DNA of 64,000 nt. It comes from Bacillota bacterium (lineage in GTDB: Bacteria > Bacillota > Dethiobacteria > DTU022 > UBA8154). Position numbers and translations under genes: made by a program. Positions 8,430 through 64,000 of this stretch are shown in pieces. Below the pieces are notes generated by a model. It was not told the origin of the DNA, searched no databases, and saw nothing but the letters and a program-made list of their open reading frames with translations. The DNA is taken from NCBI GenBank assembly GCA_012798755.1, contig JAAZMP010000009.1:16709-80708 (forward strand), in the 5' to 3' direction. Each line of letters begins with the position of its first letter. Positions within the stretch are counted from its first letter, which is position 1.

Positions 8430-8615
8430 CCGGCTAAAGGTCCGTCAGCCCGTGATTAACTTGCCACGCCCGGTATTCTGGCTCAAACGTCATGGCCTTG
8501 TTTCGCCTTCCCATAAGAAACAAACTTACAGTGGCATTTAGAAACAGGCTCGGCTTTTACAGCGGCGGCTCCGCGTGGGCTTTGAACCCAACTTCCCGCA
8601 AGCGCAACAAGCAAA
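8430..8615 (-). ncRNA. Cobalamin riboswitch (cbi operon)
   Basis: Minus strand: gcgggaagttgggttcaaagcccacgcggagccgccgctgtaa...gccactg...gggaaggcg...gagccagaataccgggcgtggc (B12 box). Confidence 0.92.
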
Positions 8616-9047
8616 TTCAATTTTAGATTGTACATAATTTTAGGCACAAAAAACAATTCCTGTCAAGAGAAAGAAACCTATTTCTGAAGTTCTGATATAA
8701 TATTTTAGGAAAGAATTGTAGTTGAAAGCCAGAAAAGAAAAGCAGGCCACCTTTTCTGGCCCACTTACTGCGTTAAAATATCCAAGGCCCTCCGGGATAA
8801 AATAGCGTAGCGGTCGCTTCTTGATTTGGAAGGCCGGACATAAAAAAAGTTGTTGGTTGCACAAAAACATGATACGATAAGCATAGTGGCAGTACCTCAC
8901 ATGTGGCTTGTTTTGTGACAACATAACAATACCCTATATGTGGACGTACTGCCATACTAAAATATAAATAACTTGAATGAAAAAGGTTTTAAGCTATCGC
9001 TTTAGCGATTTTGTTCAATAATATAAACAAGCAAGGAGAAATAAAAG

Positions 9048-9980: not shown

Positions 9981-10076
9981 GAGCACACGGGAACACGCGG
10001 GAACACGCGGGGACGTACCTATTGTGTACTTTGGCTTGGAGCACGCGGGGACGTACCTATTGTGTACTTTGGCTTT
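9981..10076. repeat. Direct repeat (cacgcggggacgtacctattgtgtactttggctt, two copies; partial gaacacgcg repeats before)
   Basis: Exact ~34-bp repeat at about 10004-10037 and 10042-10075. Confidence 0.9.
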
Positions 10077-10194: not shown

Positions 10195-10415
10195 AATTAA
10201 ATAGCAACACGGGCGATGTGAGTGAACGGAAAGTGGGTACAAAGCCCACACAGTCACCGCTGCTGTAAGCATGGCAGGCGCTTGCCATCAGGCCACTGGG
10301 GTAAGGAAGTAGGTACACCCTGGGAAGGCGACAAGCGTAATATGCAAGTCAGAAGGCCGGCTCACATCGGTTTTGTCAGACCTTTCGGTGCAAAAGGACT
10401 GTCAGGATAAGAATA
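10195..10415 (+). ncRNA. Cobalamin riboswitch (fecCD/fecE/cbiK operon)
   Basis: gtgggtacaaagcccacacagtcaccgctgctgtaa...gccactgggg...tgggaaggcgac...aagtcagaaggccggct. Confidence 0.92.
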
Positions 10416-18679: not shown

Positions 18680-18874
18680 TTTGATAATTCCCTCCTTTTA
18701 AATACGCTGTAAATTTAAGGCATCTTTGCGATTCCAAGCTTTTAACTTATCCTTTAAAACGCCTGCTTTGTAAACGGTTATGCTTGCCGTAACAACCATT
18801 CTTTTGTAATGTCTTGTCATTTTAGGCACAAAAAATAAATCACCTTCCCCTTGAAAAATGAATTTTATTTTTCC

Positions 18875-19025
18875 CCCGTTAGGCAGGTCTCCTGACTTAC
18901 ACTTCCTGATGCTGCCTTCCCAGCTTGCGCCAGTGGCTTTGTAGCATCGGATTTAAATGTGATTACAGTAGCAGGGCTGTTATGGATTTGCACCATATTC
19001 CCTTTTAATTGTGCACACAAACCTA
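18875..19025 (-). ncRNA. Cobalamin riboswitch (FMN-binding/substrate-binding transporter operon)
   Basis: + strand shows reverse complement of B12 box (ggcaggtctcctgact), tgccttccca, cagtggc, ttacagtagcagggctgt...ggatttgcaccatattccct. Confidence 0.9.
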
Positions 19026-19155
19026 GGGGTTAGCCATATTAAATTTTGTGGTAAAGCAAATTTTCAAAGGTTATTCACCAGAGGAATTTGCCCCTTGTTG
19101 CATCGTGCCCGCGGGCATCCTTTTCAGTCCCGTCCTCCCTTTGGTATTACCCGTA

Positions 19156-20315: not shown

Positions 20316-20354
20316 CACTAGAGCCAGGGCAGTTTACCCATTGAATAATTTTAA

Positions 20355-20442
20355 GTGACAGGGGGACGGTTCTCTTGTCATCAAAGCCAGGTATGCACTT
20401 TCCGCTATTTTTTAGGTGACAAGAGAACCGTCCCCCTGTCAC
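20355..20442. repeat. 26-bp perfect inverted repeat (GTGACAGGGGGACGGTTCTCTTGTCA / TGACAAGAGAACCGTCCCCCTGTCAC), 36-nt spacer
   Basis: Arms 20355-20380 and 20417-20442, exact reverse complements. Confidence 0.97.
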
Positions 20443-20470
20443 TTTTTAGCGGTAACAGCAACAAGCTAAT

Positions 20471-36503: not shown

Positions 36504-37196
36504 TTAATTAAAGCGCTGTACTGCCTTAAGCAAAAATTCCAGCAGAAAAAAGCGGTATGAGGGTTCTTTAGAGCTATCTTTATCTGTTTTCTGTTTAGCC
36601 ATTTCCTTTTTTTCTTCCGTGGAAAAGCTGGTTTCTTCTTCATCAGGCACCTCTGGGATGACATTAAAACAAAGGGGCGGAAACAACACACACCACCAAT
36701 TTTCACCATTTCCATCACCGATAATTATATACAGCGCCTCATATTTTCCGGGCGGAAAAAATTTACCTCCGTAGAAGCGTGCCGGGAAAGTGCTTTTTTC
36801 CAGCAAAACCTTCACATCTTCCGCAACACCTTTTTCTTTGAGAGTATTGCGGACCATGGCCTCCAGATTTTTTTGATCTTTGGAAAGCATCCCTTTAAGT
36901 TCTTGTTTATTGCAGCAACCGTTCCAGCGCGAACCATATAAGCATATCGTTTTTTGGGCCAGGTGGTTTTTAACTTCGATATCTTCAGGTCTGTTGCTAT
37001 GAGCCTTGACGTGAAAACGAATAATGTTTTCCGGAGAAACCACCTCATATTGTTCGCCCAGCATCAAGTCCAAAGGCCCCGGCTTTCCCCATAAATCAGA
37101 TCCAGCAAGTAAAAACAGCCAGACGGAACAAATGTAACAAAATAAGCAGAGCAGTGCCCTAATCCTTTTAGTGGTACTATTATTTGCAGATTTCAT
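36504..37196 (-). CDS. spoIIR: Stage II sporulation protein R
   Basis: IIRFHVKAHSNRPEDIEVKNHLA; FPARFYGGKFFPPGKYEALYIIIGDGNGENWWCVLFPPLCF; start re-set to MKSANNST. Confidence 0.92.
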   Translation of the reverse strand: MKSANNSTTKRIRALLCLFCYICSVWLFLLAGSDLWGKPGPLDLMLGEQYEVVSPENIIRFHVKAHSNRPEDIEVKNHLAQKTICLYGSRWNGCCNKQELKGMLSKDQKNLEAMVRNTLKEKGVAEDVKVLLEKSTFPARFYGGKFFPPGKYEALYIIIGDGNGENWWCVLFPPLCFNVIPEVPDEEETSFSTEEKKEMAKQKTDKDSSKEPSYRFFLLEFLLKAVQRFN

Positions 37197-38043
37197 TTTT
37201 TTTGGGAGCACCCCCCGGGCCTTGTTTTCCTTCCGCAAGTTGTTCAGTAGCCGAAGCAAGTTGGCCCCGGTAAAATTTGCGGATAAAGCGTAAAGCCGCC
37301 TTCTCAATCCTGGATATCTGCGCCTGGGAAATGCCCACTTTTTGTGCTACTTCTATCTGGGTCCTCCCCTGAAAAAAACGGGCCACAAGGATATACTTCT
37401 CCCTGGGGCTTAATTTTTCCAAAGCCTCTTTAAGCGCAATGGTTTCCAGCCATTTTTCGTCTTCGTTCTGTTCATCTTGCAAAAGATCAACTATATGCAA
37501 CGGATCCGTGCTGTCATTAAAAACAGGTTCAAAAAATGAAATTGGCTCCATGCAGGCATTATGGGCCATGACGATCTCCTCCGGCGTAAACCCTGTTTCT
37601 GCAGCAATCTCACTTAAAGTAGGTTCTTTATGATTTTTTTGCAGAAAATTGCTCCTTGCGCCCTGGATCCTTTGGGCCTTTGTCTTTAAGGAACGGCTGA
37701 TATGAATATAGTTATTGTCCCTGAGATAGCGTCTTATTTCTCCAAGAATCATGGGGACAGCATAGGTGGAAAAATTGACTCCCCGTTCCAATTGGAAATT
37801 ATCTATGGCCTTCATCAACCCAATACACCCAATTTGAAAAAGGTCGTCCATGTTTTCGCCGCGATTAGCAAAATTTTTGAGAACGCTTAACACTAGCTTT
37901 AGGTTGCCGCTGATGAGCTCCTCCCTTACCTCTGTTTCACCTTCTTGCATGCGCCGGAACAGTTCCTTCATTTTTTCCCAAGGTATTGTGGGGAGCTCAT
38001 AAGTATTTACACCGCTGACTTTGACTTTTTTATAGTTATACAT
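37180..38043 (-). CDS. sigG: Sporulation sigma factor, sigma-G-like
   Basis: SGNLKLVLSVLKNFANRGENMDDLFQIGCIGLMKAIDNF; RFFQGRTQIEVAQKVGISQAQISRIEKAAL. Confidence 0.88.
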   Translation of the reverse strand: MYNYKKVKVSGVNTYELPTIPWEKMKELFRRMQEGETEVREELISGNLKLVLSVLKNFANRGENMDDLFQIGCIGLMKAIDNFQLERGVNFSTYAVPMILGEIRRYLRDNNYIHISRSLKTKAQRIQGARSNFLQKNHKEPTLSEIAAETGFTPEEIVMAHNACMEPISFFEPVFNDSTDPLHIVDLLQDEQNEDEKWLETIALKEALEKLSPREKYILVARFFQGRTQIEVAQKVGISQAQISRIEKAALRFIRKFYRGQLASATEQLAEGKQGPGGAPKKNEICK

Positions 38044-38150: not shown

Positions 38151-38361
38151 GCAGCATTTTGCTGGAGGCAAAAGCGGGGAAGTTCAGCTTGGAAAGTTCT
38201 ACGACTCACTGGGAGCTTGCGATGACCTGCCCGGCCAAATGCCCGTCCATGGGCATAGGCCGGCTGACGGCGTCCGGCCGTCAGGAACATCTCCAGCCCC
38301 CATATCGTCGTGAACTTGCCGCCAAGCCTCACGACCCGTTTTGACTACAGCAAAATGCTGC
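38151..38361 (+). repeat. Fold-back element copy 1 (211 bp; 14-bp terminal inverted repeats GCAGCATTTTGCTG/CAGCAAAATGCTGC)
   Basis: Direct comparison with copies 2 and 3; long imperfect self-complementarity. Confidence 0.95.
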
Positions 38362-38456
38362 CTGCACGGATCGGTAGCGGGGGGAGGCAAAACGGAAATT
38401 CTGATGGAGCAGGGTTGTAAGCTGTATTGTATACAGGCAATTACAGCTTCCTAAAT

Positions 38457-38672
38457 GGAGGCAAAAGCGGGAGGTTCAGCTTGGAAAGTTCTACGACTCC
38501 CTGGAACCTTGCGATGAACTGCCCGGCCAAATGCCCGTCCATGGGCATAGGCCGGCTGACGGCGTCCGGCCGTCAGGAACATCTCCAGCCCCCATATCGT
38601 CGTGAACTTGCCGCCAAGCCTCACAACCCGTTTTGACTACAGCAAAATGCTGCCTGCACGGATCGGTAGCGG
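38457..38672 (+). repeat. Fold-back element copy 2 (tandem to copy 1, left terminal hairpin replaced)
   Basis: Near-identical to copy 1 from ggaggcaaaagcggg through ctgcacggatcggtagcggg. Confidence 0.95.
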
Positions 38673-38715
38673 GAAAAAACAAAACGAAAAACCCTGATGG
38701 AGGGGGTTACCAGGG

Positions 38716-39594
38716 ATGGGTGTCAGCATTGAACAAGTTTTACAGGGGGGCACTTCTTTTTTGAAACAAAAAGGTCTTCGCTTTCCACGCCAGGAAGCTG
38801 AGATATTGTTGGCCTTTCTTCTAGGCAGGGAAAGACCGTATTTATACGCCCATGGGGAAGAAAAAGTTGCCCCGGAACTGGAAAAGACGTACAAAAAAAT
38901 ACTGCAGCGCAGAGGCGCAAGAATACCCTTGGCTTATATTACTGGGAAAAAAGAATTTATGGGGCTTGGCTTTTCCGTTAACAAAAATGTGCTCATCCCT
39001 CGTCCAGAGACGGAACACCTCGTAGAGGCTGTAATTGCCTGGGGTAAGAAATTTTATGCACAATCAGAACAAAAAGAAACCCTGAAAATTTTGGATCTGG
39101 GTACCGGCTGCGGAAACATTGCCGTTGCCCTGGCCCATTACCTGCCCTTTTCTTTTGTAACAGGAGTGGATTTAAAAAAAGAAGCCGTGGAACTGGCTTG
39201 TCAAAACGCCCAAAATGTAGGGGTTAACAAACGCACCCGGTTCCTATGCGGTGATTTCTGGGAACCTCTTGTCCCCGGGGAAGATACATTCAATGTCATT
39301 GTTTCCAACCCGCCCTACATTCCACGGGAAGAATTATTTACACTTTCCCCTGAAGTACAAAATGAACCCCGCCTGGCCCTGGACGGTGGCCCCGATGGAC
39401 TTACGGCCTACAGGCATATATTTGATAATGTACAAAAATTCCTGACCTGTCCGGGGCTTCTGGCGGTGGAAATTGGCGACAAACAAGCTAAAAACATCTG
39501 GGAAATGAGCAGCAGACTTGCATTTTTGCGGAATATCGAAATTATAAAAGATTACGCGGGAATAAGCCGTGTGATCTCAGGCAGTACCATTTAA
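38716..39594 (+). CDS. prmC: Peptide chain release factor N5-glutamine methyltransferase
   Basis: ILDLGTGCGNIAVALAHYLP, VSNPPYIPREE. Confidence 0.95.
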   Translation: MGVSIEQVLQGGTSFLKQKGLRFPRQEAEILLAFLLGRERPYLYAHGEEKVAPELEKTYKKILQRRGARIPLAYITGKKEFMGLGFSVNKNVLIPRPETEHLVEAVIAWGKKFYAQSEQKETLKILDLGTGCGNIAVALAHYLPFSFVTGVDLKKEAVELACQNAQNVGVNKRTRFLCGDFWEPLVPGEDTFNVIVSNPPYIPREELFTLSPEVQNEPRLALDGGPDGLTAYRHIFDNVQKFLTCPGLLAVEIGDKQAKNIWEMSSRLAFLRNIEIIKDYAGISRVISGSTI

Positions 39595-39730
39595 AAATCC
39601 CCAGAAAAATAGCATGCTGCTTTTTCGGCAACTTGTTAAAAGCTGTGCCTAATGATTGAAACCAGCATCCGTTTTGCCGGGAGGGTAAGATGTTTATAAG
39701 AAAAATTGGTTAAAAATAGGGAGGTACTAC

Positions 39731-40330
39731 ATGGTAGGCAATATTTTGGCCATTTCCTCCAGCCCCCGCAAAAACGGCAACAGCGAACTGTTGCTGCAGT
39801 CATTTAACCGGGGCGTGCAAAAAGGAGGGGAAAATGTTGAGATTGTACGAATCTGCAACCTTGGGTATGGCCCCTGCAAGGCCTGTGATCAGTGTGCGGC
39901 TACCGGAGAATGCATTTTGCAGGATGACATGCGCAGTATTTACCCGCTGGTTGCTTCTGCCAAGGCCATGGTTATCGCTACACCGATTTATTTTGGCAGC
40001 CTGTCTGCGCAGCTAAAAATGTTTATTGATCGTTTTCAATGCTGGTGGTATGCTAAATACAGGCTGGGTAAACCCCAGGTAAAACCTGGAGAAGAAAGAC
40101 CGGGTTTTTTTATTTCCGTGGGTGCTTTAAAAAATGAGGAACATGCAAAAAATGCTTTATCAATAGCTAAAATTTATTTTCGATCCATTAATTATCGCTA
40201 TGCCGGTTCCCTTTGCTGCTCCGGCATAGATGAAAAAGCTGCGGTTAAGAAGCATCCGGACCAATTACAAAATGCTTATATCGCCGGCCGGAATTTTGCC
40301 GAAACCATAAAACAGGCCGGAACATCATAA
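39731..40330 (+). CDS. NADPH-dependent FMN reductase / flavodoxin-like oxidoreductase
   Basis: ILAISSSPRKNGNSELLLQSF, CKACDQCAATGECILQDDM, ATPIYFGSLSAQLKMFIDR. Confidence 0.92.
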   Translation: MVGNILAISSSPRKNGNSELLLQSFNRGVQKGGENVEIVRICNLGYGPCKACDQCAATGECILQDDMRSIYPLVASAKAMVIATPIYFGSLSAQLKMFIDRFQCWWYAKYRLGKPQVKPGEERPGFFISVGALKNEEHAKNALSIAKIYFRSINYRYAGSLCCSGIDEKAAVKKHPDQLQNAYIAGRNFAETIKQAGTS

Positions 40331-40403
40331 AAGTTGCAAACAAACCTTGTTTTCCAAAGAACTGCTCCCGGCATTGTGGAATTATTAATGGCTTTTGTTC
40401 CGG

Positions 40404-40823
40404 CTAAGATAAAAATTTTCCGGTGGAGGTTATAGTTAATTTTCCGTGTTTTACACCCTTAACACTGATGATATGTTCCGCCAGTTCGTGCACCTCTTTT
40501 GCTGTTCCCTTTACAGCCAACACTTCCAAACAGTTTTCGTGATCAAGGTGCACGTGCATTGTGGAAAGGATTAAATCATGGCAATCATGCTGCAGCTCCA
40601 GCAATACTTCGCTTAACCCCCTGACGTGGTGGTCATAGACAAGCGTTACCGTTCCGGCCACTTCTTGATCATCTCTTTCCCACTGCATTTCTACCAGTTC
40701 ATTGCGAATTAAATCGCGGATTGCCTCTGAGCGGTTTTGATATCCTTTTTGTGCAATAAGTTTATCAAATGCTTCCAGCAGGCCTTCGCTGATGGAAACC
40801 CCAAAGCGAACCAATTGCGACAT
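40404..40823 (-). CDS. nikR: NikR-type nickel-responsive ribbon-helix-helix regulator
   Basis: [41 protein letters not shown]; metal-site [37 protein letters not shown]. Confidence 0.94.
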
Positions 40824-40883
40824 ATAATCCCTCCTTCAAGTAGAACTTCCCAAGCTGAACCCCCTCGCTACCGATCCGTGCAG

Positions 40884-41093
40884 GCAGCATTTTGCTGTAG
40901 GCAAAACGGGTTGTGAGGCTTGGAAGCAAGTTCACGACGATATGGGGGCTGGAGATGTCCCTGACGGCCGGACGCCGTCAGCCGGCCTATGCCCATGGAC
41001 GGGCATTTGGCCGGGCAGGTCATCGCAAGCTCCCAGGGAGTCGTAGAACTTCCCAAGCTGAACCTCCCGCTTTTGCCTCCAGCAAAATGCTGC
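40884..41093 (-). repeat. Fold-back element copy 3 (210 bp, inverted relative to copies 1/2)
   Basis: Reverse complement differs from copy 1 at only about ten positions; same 14-bp terminal inverted repeats. Confidence 0.95.
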
Positions 41094-41105: not shown

Positions 41106-42173
41106 CTATTTAGCCGCCTTAAGCTGCTCAGCCCGGTCAAAAGTTACCAAGGCTTCAATAACCTGATCCAATTCCCCATCCAAAACTTGATCCAGCTTAT
41201 GCAGTGTTAAATTGATCCGGTGATCGGTAACCCTGTTTTGCGGAAAATTGTACGTGCGGATACGCTCGCTGCGATCACCGGATCCGATCTGGCTGCGCCT
41301 CTTTTGTGCCTGTTCCTCTTGTTGCTCCGAAGTAATTTTATCCAGAAGCCGTGCCCGGAGAACCCTCATTGCTTTTTCCCGGTTTTTCAACTGGGATTTT
41401 TCGTCTTGGCAGGAAACGACAGTATTTGACGGAACATGCGTAACACGTACAGCTGACTGTGTAGTGTTGACACTTTGTCCCCCGGGCCCCGTGGAACAAA
41501 AAGTATCTATCCTTAAATCTTGGGGATTGATCTTCAGTTCTATCTCATCGGCCTCCGGCAAAACAGCCACCGTGGCAGCCGATGTATGGATCCGCCCGCT
41601 CGACTCGGTGGTAGGAATCCTTTGCACGCGGTGTACCCCTTTTTCAAATTTCAACTGGCTGTAGGCGCCGCGGCCTTTCACGGAAAATACTATCTCCTTA
41701 AAACCTCCGATATCCGTAGGGCTGGAACTTAAAATTTCCGTACCCCATTGTTTCTTTTCTGCATAACGCAGGTACATGCGCAACAAATCAGAGGCAAAAA
41801 GTGCCGCTTCGTCCCCGCCGGTTCCGGCCCGAAGTTCTATAATCACATCTTTTTCATCATTGGGATCTTTTGGTATCAGCAGTACTTTTAAATTTTCTTC
41901 CAGTTGTTCTTTGCGGGAATCTAAACCGGCAATTTCTTCTTTGAGGAAAAGGATCATTTCTTCTTCCGGTTTTTCCCGCAGCATTTCTTTCGCGTCCATG
42001 ATTTCTTTCTCTATTTTTTGTAGTTCGCGAAAATTTTCTATGATTTCCATGAGATCAGCATGTTCTCGGGTATATTTCAGCCATTGTTGCTGATCCTTGA
42101 TTATCTCCGGATCGCTTAAATTTTCCTCCAGAAACAGGAAATGCTCCTCTAACGCTTTTAGTTTTTCCCTCAT
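41106..42173 (-). CDS. prfA: Peptide chain release factor 1
   Basis: [48 protein letters not shown]; start re-set to MREKLKAL. Confidence 0.96.
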
Positions 42174-42204
42174 CTTTTTGTAAAACCTCCAGATATTGGC
42201 TCTT

Positions 42205-43104
42205 CTAGGAATATGATCGGCCGGGATCCGGCACTTCTTCGGGTAAAACTGCTTGCAAGGCTGAAAGAGCAACCTCTACCTGATCATCAGTTGGTTTTTG
42301 GGTCGTCAACAGCTGCAACCATAGACCCGGCTGTGAAAGAATTCTGGTAAACAAATTGTCTTTCGTACCGGCCAGCCTGATAGCTTCGTAGGAAAGCCCC
42401 GCAACCAATGGCAACAGCAAGAGCCTGATCACAATTCGCTGCCATAGCCCGGGCCAACCAAATAAAGAAAAAAGTAGAATACTGGTGACCATAACAATCA
42501 GTAAAAAGCTGGTGCCACAACGCCGGTGCAGAGTACTGCAATCATGGGTGTTTTCCACTGTTAAAGGGCGGCCGGCTTCAAAACAGGCAATGGCCTTATG
42601 TTCGGCACCATGATACTGAAAAACGCGCCTGATCTCTTTCCAACGGGATATTGCAAAAATGTAGCTGAGGAAAATAACCATCCGCAGCAGGCCTTCGGCA
42701 AGGTTAAGCAAAAGTGGCATTTCCAAGCCCTGTTTTAAAAATTTCATCAGCACGGTAGGCAATAGCATAAAAAGACCTATCCCTGCCGCCAGGGAAATTA
42801 CCAGGGTCAGGGGCAGCTCCCAACCTCCCAGCTCTTCCTCTTCATCTTCCAAAACTTGTTCAGCGGATAAAGTCAAAGATTGGTACCCAAGGATCAGGGC
42901 CTCCACAAAGGCAACAACACCTCTTAAAAGAGGCCATTTTAAAAAAGGGTATTTTTCACCGATAGACCGAAAATGTTTTTTATGCACGGATATGGTCCCT
43001 TTATCTTGGCGCAAGGCAATGGCAACAGCACTTTTGTTGCGCATCATCACACCTTCTATTACTGCCTGGCCACCAACAGTGAAATTTTCTCTGCCCATCA
43101 ACAC
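42205..43104 (-). CDS. DUF1385 family metal-dependent membrane protein
   Basis: [38 protein letters not shown]. Confidence 0.92.
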
Positions 43105-54958: not shown

Positions 54959-55837
54959 TTGGGAGGTTATGATATGCCGGAATCTGCCGAACAAAATTTG
55001 CAACAACCCGAAGTTAGCCAAATGAATATCTTGGACATGCTGGTAAAGGTTGGCCCGCTAATTCAAAAAGCCATTCCCATGGACTGTACATTTGTGGTAT
55101 CAGACAAAGAAAAGTTCCTTCTCCACCTGTCCGGTGAAGAACTATACCTGGGAGAACTGGATGGCAAGCCTATTTCCTCTGAAGGTGTTCTCATTGATGC
55201 TATACGTTCCGGTCAATTTACAATTAAATTTATCCCGGGGGAAGCCTACGGCATTCCCTTTAAAGCGACCGGTTTGCCTATAAAGGATGATGACGGAGCA
55301 ATCATCGGCGCGCTTTCTATGGGCTTTAACCTTAAAAGGCAAGAAAAGTTAACCGAAATGGCCCAAGATTTTGCCTCAACCTTAGAAGAGGTTGGCGCCT
55401 CTACGGAAGAGCTGGCATCATCTGCCGAAGAACTTGCCAGTGAAATGGAAACGTTAAATGTTCTGCATAAAGAAATGAACGAAGAAGTAGGCAAGACTGA
55501 AACCATGCTTGCCTTTATTCAAAAAGTTGCCGCTAATTCCAACCTTTTGGGGCTTAACGCCGCTATCGAGGCCGCCCGGGTGGGACATGAAGGGCGCGGT
55601 TTTGCGGTTGTGGCCGAAGAAATACGCAAAATGGCCGAAAACAGCGCCTCTTCCGTTGAAGAAATCAGAGAAACCATAGAGACGATAAAAGAAAAGGTAG
55701 CCTCCATAAGCGAAAAAACTGACAAAGTGCTTGATATATCAAGCCACCAGGCAGCTGCAACCCAGGAAATTTCCTCGGCTATCCAAGAGCTAACCGGTCA
55801 TACGGGGGAACTGGAGAAAATTGCCGAACTAATTTAA
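54959..55837 (+). CDS. Soluble (no TM) methyl-accepting chemotaxis-type protein with N-terminal sensor domain
   Basis: C-terminal [40 protein letters not shown]; no hydrophobic TM segment. Confidence 0.9.
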
Positions 55838-57409
55838 CGCCGTTTCTTTTTCTTTAATCCCAATATGCTTTTCCCGAAGCCTTGGCTTATCTATTTTGCC
55901 GTTTTCATTGCGGATGACATCGTCAAAAATTATGCGCTCCGGCCATTTAAATTTGGCCAGCCCATGCTCGGCACAAAACCGGATAACTTCTTCTTCCTTC
56001 ATCGTCTCCCCGGGATGGAGCTGTACAACAGCCATGGCAATTTCCACCAGCCTTTGATGGGGATAGCCTATTACAGCCACATCGCTGATTTTGGGATGAC
56101 GGCGCAAGACATCTTCTATTTCCACCGGGAAAATATTTTCCCCGCCGCGAATGATCAGGTCTTTTTTTCTATCTACGATATAGATATAGCCATCTTCGTC
56201 TTCCTTGACGAGATCGCCGGTATAAAGCCAACCGTTTTTAACAGCAACGGCGGTCATGGCAGGATTGTTAAAATATTCCTTCATGTTCCTTGGACCGCGA
56301 AGGATAAGTTCCCCAATTTCCCCTGTGGGAACATCGTTTCCATTATCGTCAACAACCCTTGCTTCAGTGTTATAGGTAGGTTTTCCGATGGAGCCCGGCC
56401 TGGTTAAGACATCTTCATCGTACAGATTTATCAACCCACCACCGCCGCCTTCTGTAATGCCGTAAATATTTCCGGTCCTAAAGGGCAAAAGCTTTTTCAT
56501 ATCCTGAAAAAGTGAAAATGGAACCGGCTGAGCACCGATCACAATACTTCCAGTAACATGTGCAAAGTCGTATTCCGTAATATCAATGATACCTTTTTTG
56601 ATGGCATTAATACAATCAGACATGGTTGGAACAGTAATCCAGCCGTTATTCACCTTTTCCTCAGTGATAGCATCCAGCAAATATTTTGGATCGAGCTCCC
56701 GCAGAATGACGATCTTGCCACCGGCAAGATAAGAAGGAAAGGACAAAAAGAAACTGCCGCTATGATAAAAAGGATGCGGTGCCAGATATACAGTACAATG
56801 TCCTTCATCGTAAGTCAGGGCATTGCCGATACCAATTTGGCTAAGGGTACCATGTGAATGGCAAACCGGTTTTGGAGGACCTGTTGTTCCCGAGGTAAAC
56901 ATAAGCTCCGCCGGATCGTCCTCCTGTACATCGACAAGGATATCCCCGGGGTTTTCTCCCTTTACAATATCGCTGTAAGAAACCATCCCTTCGGGGACAT
57001 TGTCACCAATACATATATATGTAACGCTGTCCATTTCTTTTTGGATAGGCCCCACCTTGGGTAAAAAACCATCGCCTAAAATAAAAGCTTTGGGATGGCA
57101 GGCTTTGGCGGCATGCTTTATATCAATTGTGGCAAATCGGTAATTAAGAGGAACGGCCACAGCCCCGGCCCTTAAAATAGCATGAAATGTAATAACCCAT
57201 TCCAGACTGTTCATCTGCAAATGAAGAACAAAATCACCTTTTCGCACTCCGGCAATGTTATACAAATAAGCGGCAACTTTATTTGTTTCCTCATTAAATT
57301 TTTCCCAAGTCAGTGCTCTTCTTAACTTTTCGGACGGCTTCAGTTCTACAAGGAATTCCTTTTGTGGATATTTTTTAGCATTCATAATCCCGTACCGGCC
57401 AAAATTCAT
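55829..57409 (-). CDS. AMP-dependent acyl-CoA synthetase/ligase
   Basis: [61 protein letters not shown]; start re-set to MNFGRYGI because upstream ORF part covers terminators. Confidence 0.92.
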
Positions 57410-57513
57410 TTCTCCAAATCCCCCTTTATGGCAGCAAAGAAAATGGAACAGCATTTTATCCCCTAGGCTGCTTTTGTTTACTGTTTTTTCCCGGTTAACT
57501 TGTCCACTGTCAA

Positions 57514-57558
57514 GTAAAAAGGTGTTTGCCGCATGCATAGGGACGAAAGCAGCAAACA
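57514..57558 (-). terminator. Second intrinsic terminator downstream of T-box
   Basis: Minus strand GGTGTTTGCtgctttcgtccctatgcatgcgGCAAACACCTTTTT. Confidence 0.7.
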
Positions 57559-57574
57559 CCGTGTTTAAAATCAG

Positions 57575-57880
57575 AAAAATAAAATTCGCCCTCAAGGGGC
57601 GAATTATTATTTCTTCCGCGGTACCACCCTAGTTGGCCGGCGCTTATATTGCACCAGGCCCTCTTGGTTTTAAAGAACACGGAATACCTTGCCGGTACCG
57701 TATTCTTCCTCTGGGATAACGGGGGAGAACCCGTCTGCGGCCTACTTTCCCTTTGAAGGTTTCAACCGGAGGCTCCAAAGCGAACTTCGACCGGTTCCTT
57801 CCGGAGGAGCTTACAGCCCCCGGCTCCTACCTCTCTGCAGGAAGTACTCCGGTTTACTTTTCTTTTTCATAGCCTTTATA
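57575..57880 (-). ncRNA. T-box leader with terminator
   Basis: Minus strand agagaggtaggagccggg...aaagtaggccg...gacgggttctcccccgttatc...AACTAGGGTGGTACCGCGG, then AATTCGCCCcttgaGGGCGAATTTTATTTTT terminator. Confidence 0.9.
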
Positions 57881-62938: not shown

Positions 62939-63841
62939 TTATTGCTCCAAAATACCGGTAAAGGCGTTGACGTAATATATTTCATCATTATTAAGGCGAA
63001 TCCTCCACACCGGCGGGATTTCCCATCTTTCAGCATCATACTGCCGGCTATAAAAGCCAAGAGAAAAACCAATAATCTCTGTTTTTCCTTTTACTTCTGC
63101 ATTTGTATCATATATTTCAGCGAAGCGCAACAATGCAGTAGAAGGAGGAATGATCTCTCTTTCCTGCCCTACAAAATTCCTGGGCTCCAGGCGATAAAAG
63201 CATAACTTTACCAAAGCCTCTTTCTCCATTAAAAAATGCAAATATCCAGCATAAAGCGGAAATCCCTCATAGTCCTGGCTAAAATTTACAGTTACCGTCT
63301 TTTTGGTATTTTTTTGTGAGTAATCATAACCGTAATTCTCCAGGAAAGGAATTTTACGGCAAAGCTCATAGGCAATCTGTTCCATCTCCTCTGCATGAAG
63401 TTCTTTTAAAAGTTTTTCACCCCCTGTTTTTTTAAAAGTTATGACCCCCTTTTTATTAATATGCAGCTCAAAATCTTCAAAGCGATACGCCGTAAAGCTT
63501 TCCCCGACAGTTTCATTTATCATTTCAACTTGTCCAGGCTCTGCATAAGATGATTTTTCATCATCTGCAAAGGCCCCATATAAATCCAAAATTATTTCCT
63601 CGGGCTTAAAGTGCCATGGTTCCACCACAATATGAGCAAGGGCGGTGCCATCTTTGGGCAGAGACGTTTCCAAAAACAAGCCTGCCTGCTGAAGCGCTGC
63701 CTCTAGCTTTGACATCTCTTCCTTTCGACCAAAAAGGCCTGTTTTTCCTCCGCCCTTATCAAGCAATATCTGGGATATAAGAAATATATTCAAGATTAAG
63801 AAAGTATAGATCAGTACCGTTTTGGCCCTGGAAACATCCAT
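62939..63841 (-). CDS. yycI: YycI-like two-component system regulatory protein
   Basis: MDVSRAKTVLIYTFLILNIFLISQILLDK; ETEIIGFSLGFYSRQYDAERWEIPPVWRIRLNNDEIYYVNAFTG; near murA/htrA. Confidence 0.82.
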   Translation of the reverse strand: MDVSRAKTVLIYTFLILNIFLISQILLDKGGGKTGLFGRKEEMSKLEAALQQAGLFLETSLPKDGTALAHIVVEPWHFKPEEIILDLYGAFADDEKSSYAEPGQVEMINETVGESFTAYRFEDFELHINKKGVITFKKTGGEKLLKELHAEEMEQIAYELCRKIPFLENYGYDYSQKNTKKTVTVNFSQDYEGFPLYAGYLHFLMEKEALVKLCFYRLEPRNFVGQEREIIPPSTALLRFAEIYDTNAEVKGKTEIIGFSLGFYSRQYDAERWEIPPVWRIRLNNDEIYYVNAFTGILEQ

Positions 63842-63873
63842 TCATACACCCCCAACAAACGTACTGTAGTATA

Positions 63874-64000
63874 CAGTATTTTACTGTGGATGAAGCCTGT
63901 TGTGAAGCGAGGCGGCAAGTTCACGGTGAAGGGAAGGCTGTAGACGATTAGCTGACAGGATGTCAGCTACCGGCCTTTGACCACGGACGGGAATTGGCCG
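63874..64000 (-). repeat. Fold-back element copy 4 (diverged, truncated by window end)
   Basis: Colinear with copy 3 (cagtattttactg ... ttgtgaagc ... gcaagttcac ... gctgaca gga tgtcagc ... ccggcc ... ggacggg ... ttggccg). Confidence 0.8.

Follow-up and report, generated by a model that had tools for sequence, protein, structure and literature searches.

Dispersed palindromic repeats that share a conserved forked core in an uncultured group of Bacillota

The enterobacterial repetitive intergenic consensus (ERIC) is a 127-bp sequence that is treated as a MITE and that can affect transcripts when it lies at the 3' ends of genes (PMC10969869). The element described here resembles ERIC in being an imperfect palindrome that is scattered over intergenic spacers, which are often transcribed, and whose copy number varies widely between relatives; compared by description, it differs in that it occurs in Bacillota, is longer, and has a forked two-hairpin core and ends that vary between lineages. 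With MITEs in general (PMC10969869) it shares several traits: it is short, lacks a gene for a transposase, ends in inverted repeats (which are near-exact in one genome, G016), is dispersed and nested, and has empty sites. However, its core is conserved and its ends vary, the opposite of what a typical MITE shows. A target duplication and a parental element are usual for MITEs; by eye, we saw no consistent target-site duplication at the ends of the G016 and G003 copies, and the G016 loci that we read around lone ends contained no autonomous parent element. REP/BIME sequences, which are associated with RAYT (Y1) transposases (PMC3733652, PMC2817692), are likewise palindromic, intergenic and often found directly past stop codons. 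REPs, however, are 20-40 bp long, whereas our element measures ~210 nt and had no link to Y1 transposase genes in our scan. Correia elements of Neisseria (PMC10969869), for which promoter function and RNase III processing are known, are similar in being small inverted-repeat elements near genes. Among all these palindromic interspersed repeats, the conserved fork is the distinctive feature of the present family.

We analysed a stretch of 64,000 nt (the window; G000:C220:16709-80708), the right edge of which coincides with the end of contig C220. At this edge, on the minus strand and upstream of yycI (62939-63841, minus strand, PF09648), lies the larger part of the element that we call copy 4 (63874-64000; model positions ~80-208, comprising the forked core and the right arm). 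Its match to the other family members exceeds chance by a wide margin (BLAST 6e-7 to 3e-8; profile E 3e-24). A preliminary description of this DNA had proposed in advance that a mismatch of the missing 5' half would refute the copy. When the genome was searched against itself, another contig, C5, proved to end in 48 bases identical to the reverse complement of 63953-64000, so that the ends of C220 and C5 overlap by exactly 48 nt, within the palindrome. C5 carries walK, yycH (PF07435) and then, 11 nt past the yycH stop codon, the 5' half of copy 4 (C5:20866-20992, starting with CAGTATTTTACTG), which does match. Joined across this fragmented MAG assembly, copy 4 would be a complete, ~207-nt imperfect palindrome, CAGTATTTTACTG ... 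CAGTAAAATACTG, in the yycH-yycI spacer. The terminal hairpin noted earlier is present as CAGTAAAATACTG on the minus strand (63886-63874) and is itself palindromic, but it has a second role in the outer inverted repeat, where it is the right arm and pairs with CAGTATTTTACTG on the left. The changed apical hairpin (P4), GCTGACA-TCC-TGTCAGC, was found as described at about 63967-63951 on the minus strand, and the inner stem ATGCCC/GGGCAT of copies 1-3 is indeed only partly kept. Several other contigs of G000, G002, G003 and G016 also terminate inside element copies, and the forked palindrome is a likely cause of such assembly breaks.

Copy 4 belongs to a dispersed palindromic repeat family, previously unnamed, in an uncultured Bacillota group, whose genomes contain from 1 to about 125 copies where the family is present. 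BLAST and profile searches detected related copies in the genus of the window and in some members of its family. With a covariance model built from 22 cores (threshold E <= 0.001) we counted 125 copies in G003, 74 in G002, 21 in G009, 20 each in G004, G016 and G020, eight in G000 and five in G001. The range within the genus of the window was thus 5-125 copies per genome, no copy was detected at this threshold in 9 of the 23 genomes of the taxonomic family, and in other parts of the order the distribution was patchy, with low copy numbers. The element is about 205-215 nt long, and its end sequences and tails are lineage-specific (of the CAGC/T-ATTTT-G/ACTG type in G000). In G016 the copies, about 207 nt long, are bounded by near-exact inverted repeats (GTGGTGAAGGATGTAGTG/CACTACATCCTTTCACCAC) and are 84-97% identical inside, compared to 19-33% in the 100-nt 5' flank; nesting is frequent, and in G002 and G003 copies sit inside other copies. 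Searches of Rfam 15 at gathering and relaxed thresholds gave no relevant match, the plasmid collection searched contained no match to the element, and viral contigs searched with one exact core pattern contained none; a literature search of partial coverage found no description of a forked-palindrome family. One sequence of G003, L107 (JAGVAS010000043.1), is titled Desulfovibrio sp. DeMMO6_36; as this genome has yycH/yycI and falls in the genus of the window, the label looks wrong.

The spacers that are orthologous to the occupied ones were often empty. Between yycH and yycI, where G000 has the whole element, the other four members of the genus (G001-G004) have truncated remnants only, and representatives of three other genera (G007, G010 and G017) have spacers of 45-56 nt without the element. 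No element was present in the 35-45 nt prfA-prmC spacers of G001, G002 and G004 or between nikR and sigG in G001 and G002. The prfA-prmC and yycH-yycI sites thus provide the empty orthologous sites that are characteristic of MITEs. We consider it probable, at roughly 80%, that the family of copy 4 is a non-autonomous palindromic repeat (MITE/ERIC-like) with a conserved forked core, that is, a mobile DNA element and no gene-specific switch. What we observed is that the element is dispersed into short spacers, that it occurs in near-identical copies whose flanks are unrelated, that copies nest in one another and end in inverted repeats, that orthologous sites are empty and that copies bound an inversion; from this we infer that an enzyme acting in trans, which recognises folded DNA, spreads the element.

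We then considered the pairing within the element. RNAalifold, run on 32 copies, gave a stem topped by two hairpins, with both-sided changes in 17 of 30 pairs. After the diverged G020 and G009 copies had been added and the gaps adjusted by hand, both-sided changes were present in 25 of 36 pairs and 94% of the cells were paired; when one partner was slid by 1-3 columns as a control, the paired cells dropped to 23-44%. The compensatory changes with retained pairing that had been noticed in copy 4 are therefore real and extend to the whole family. TCC was kept in both apical loops (GGA on the opposite strand), and most G020 copies have GCTGCC/GGCAGC in place of the inner stem ATGCCC/GGGCAT. Selection on one RNA strand would be expected to let G-U pass more readily than A-C. 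The G-U/A-C counts were 22/46 in the arms of the element, and in its core we counted 18 G-U and 15 A-C among 840 cells, while the control, the three cobalamin riboswitches of the window, had 20 G-U and 6 A-C. G-U made up 2.3% of the standard pairs in the core versus 17.7% in these riboswitches, although the cells are not independent, as the copies are related, and a control of three riboswitches is small. The pairing looks DNA-like and unlike that of RNA, which is supportive but not proof. The three riboswitches themselves lie within 11 kb of each other (window 8451-8621, minus strand; 10203-10379, plus strand; 18865-19041, minus strand).

Covariation alone is no proof of selection, since the compensatory changes could be mainly mutational: through template switching during replication, a single event can both generate a perfect hairpin and repair one (PMC8794818), and such switching between the two arms may homogenise the palindrome. 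We take this possibility seriously, though it is not the explanation that we favour. Few G-U intermediates were seen, as simultaneous double changes would give; on the other hand, the forked core and both TCC loops are fixed across subfamilies with differing stems, and fixed loops are not predicted by arm homogenisation alone. Such template switching is compatible with the mobile-repeat reading.

The other copies of the window surround a rearranged segment. As a correction to the earlier description, copies 1 and 2 are two tandem copies, so that the window contains most of the fourth copy in addition to three that are complete or nearly so. A gene for a sporulation-type sigma factor (sigG-like; PF04542/PF04539/PF04545 and synteny) lies at 37180-38043 on the minus strand. 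Copy 1 (38152-38361, plus strand) is a full palindrome, and copy 2 (38456-38653, plus strand) is tandem to it and is missing the first ~11 nt. Copy 3 (40884-41092, minus strand) is a full palindrome, inverted relative to copies 1 and 2 and situated 13 nt past the stop codon of prfA (RF-1; 41106-42272, minus strand, start codon uncertain; PF03462/PF00472); the ends of copies 1 and 3 read CAGCATTTTGCTG ... CAGCAAAATGCTG. Bounded by these copies is a segment (38654-40883) that is inverted compared to relatives and contains prmC (38716-39594, plus strand, PF17827), an NADPH-dependent FMN reductase-like gene (39731-40330, plus strand, PF03358) and nikR (40404-40823, minus strand, PF08753). In all 11 relatives whose locus shows both genes, prmC is the immediate neighbour of prfA and has the same orientation, and in 8 of these 11 nikR (on the opposite strand) and sigG come next; for G004, G005 and G017 the stretch read covers the prfA-sigG block incompletely. 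In G003, where a contig starts inside an element just ahead of prmC, elements occupy the same two junctions as in G000 but the gene order is uninverted (ancestral), whereas in G000 the prmC-FMN reductase-nikR segment is flipped and lies between copies 1 and 2 on one side and copy 3 on the opposite side.

This inversion, like the join of copy 4, is read from a fragmented MAG assembly and may have arisen between the repeats; copies would then lie upstream of both prmC and nikR because of the inversion. It is unlikely that the inverted repeats, which are 96% identical, gave rise to an assembly chimera with no real rearrangement: although the G000 MAG has 225 contigs and several of them end inside elements, the roughly 4% of positions at which the inverted copies differ could allow reads to tell them apart.

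The preliminary description had placed the copies in sense orientation just ahead of start codons, and the distances in the window are as claimed (prmC 62 nt, nikR 60 nt, yycI 32 nt). In the family as a whole the copies are almost all intergenic, while their orientation to the next gene is mixed; the description had named a majority of antisense or intragenic copies as a refutation, and this does not hold outright. The 3' neighbour could be called for 43 of 51 full copies, and it presents its start to the element in 27 cases and its stop in 16; as genes were called by ORF length, these placement counts are approximate. On the 5' side, 20 of the 33 copies with a sense neighbour start within 22 nt of its stop codon. 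The leader motif TARTATGAAAATRG occurs 73 times in G003, compared to one occurrence of the reversed control, and nine times in G004. In 8 of 16 sense cases the TAR of this leader is the exact stop codon of the upstream gene. A strict rule that the element always lies in sense just past a stop codon is weakened, however, by the leader-motif set, in which the 5' neighbour is sense in 16 cases and antisense in 15.

Proximity to stop codons could also mean that the element is kept as an intercistronic RNA, an mRNA hairpin acting past upstream stops in stability, processing or termination, as has been proposed for REP and ERIC elements; REPs are mostly downstream of coding regions and plausibly transcribed (PMC3733652). 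We regard this as very unlikely, as about half of the leader-motif set has an antisense 5' neighbour, the G-U fraction is low without an excess of G-U over A-C, and the patchy copy number, like the decayed remnants, speaks against strong selection at individual sites. Least probable is the 5'-leader regulatory RNA (riboswitch-like or attenuator) that had been suggested to control prmC, nikR and yycI, since, despite three copies in sense 32-62 nt ahead of start codons in the window and strong compensatory pairing, only 3 of the 51 full copies lie 30-65 nt ahead of a start (two of them in G000; the ORF caller mis-scored nikR in this count, its actual distance being 60 nt), 16 of the 43 callable 3' neighbours present their stop, the neighbour genes are unrelated, the element is missing or decayed at orthologous sites, a palindrome folds from either strand, the pairing is poor in G-U, the element has no Rfam match, and copy 4 has no terminator-like site and a single promoter-like site at chance level. 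A sponge RNA for CsrA/RsmE was considered as well, since the loops read GGA on the other strand, and was rejected, as csrA was found neither in G003 (125 copies) nor in G016 (20 copies), both genomes being <90% complete.

Returning to the mobile palindromic repeat, we propose the following course. Each copy can form, on one DNA strand, a long stem that ends in a fork, with TCC in the loops of both fork hairpins, and the palindrome would be inserted in trans, by a putative enzyme, into short spacers, often at the TAR of a stop codon. Copies may then decay by internal deletion, as the yycH-yycI remnants in four relatives suggest, and homologous recombination between inverted copies could flip the genes between them, as at prmC-nikR; decay and flipping are steps that we read from the comparison of sequences. 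Pairing of the arms may be kept because the DNA hairpin is selected for, because template-switch repair acts between the arms, or for both reasons. Where the spacer is transcribed, as at yycH-yycI, the mRNA would gain a large hairpin from the element, as a side effect and not as a dedicated switch.

Y1/RAYT transposases were considered as mobilisers. They are present, but they are neither correlated with copy number (G002 has none and G003 one partial match, yet these two genomes are the richest in copies) nor adjacent, as no element was found beside the Y1_Tnp loci scanned. Tentatively, and with odds well below even, we suggest that the inner fork is what an unspecified recombinase or transposase recognises as folded single-stranded DNA, because the inner fork is conserved while the ends and stem sequences turn over. 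The family would then be a structure-recognised mobile element of a new kind, with attC sites or REPs as analogues, and would allow a test of whether the secondary structure of DNA can direct mobility.

The repeat family presented here, apparently undescribed so far, spans an order of uncultured Bacillota; it probably breaks assemblies, nests in itself and appears to bound a rearrangement of conserved gene order. It also carries a methodological warning: covarying stems near start codons are insufficient to call a regulatory RNA, and a DNA palindrome can be told from an RNA leader by a scarcity of G-U, by counts of orientation and by orthologous sites that are empty.

The lone G016 ends were partial copies only, two of them with another palindrome, of the GGGGACGGTTCTT type, in the apex (L232, L247). 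This palindrome is similar to an inverted repeat in the window (20353-20444; AAGTGACAGGGGGACGGTTCTCTTGTCATC / GACAAGAGAACCGTCCCCCTGTCACTT), which suggests a second repeat family that may insert into the forked palindrome. Also in G016 (L249:1440-1900), an end remnant of the element lies directly past a primary-sigma-factor-like ORF, ahead of an apparent tRNA cluster. Elsewhere in the window, two tandem 38-nt units (GGAACACGCGGGGACGTACCTATTGTGTACTTTGGCTT), 97% identical, occupy 10000-10075, and a T-box leader (57592-57879, minus strand) lies immediately upstream of the ORF at 55829-57595.
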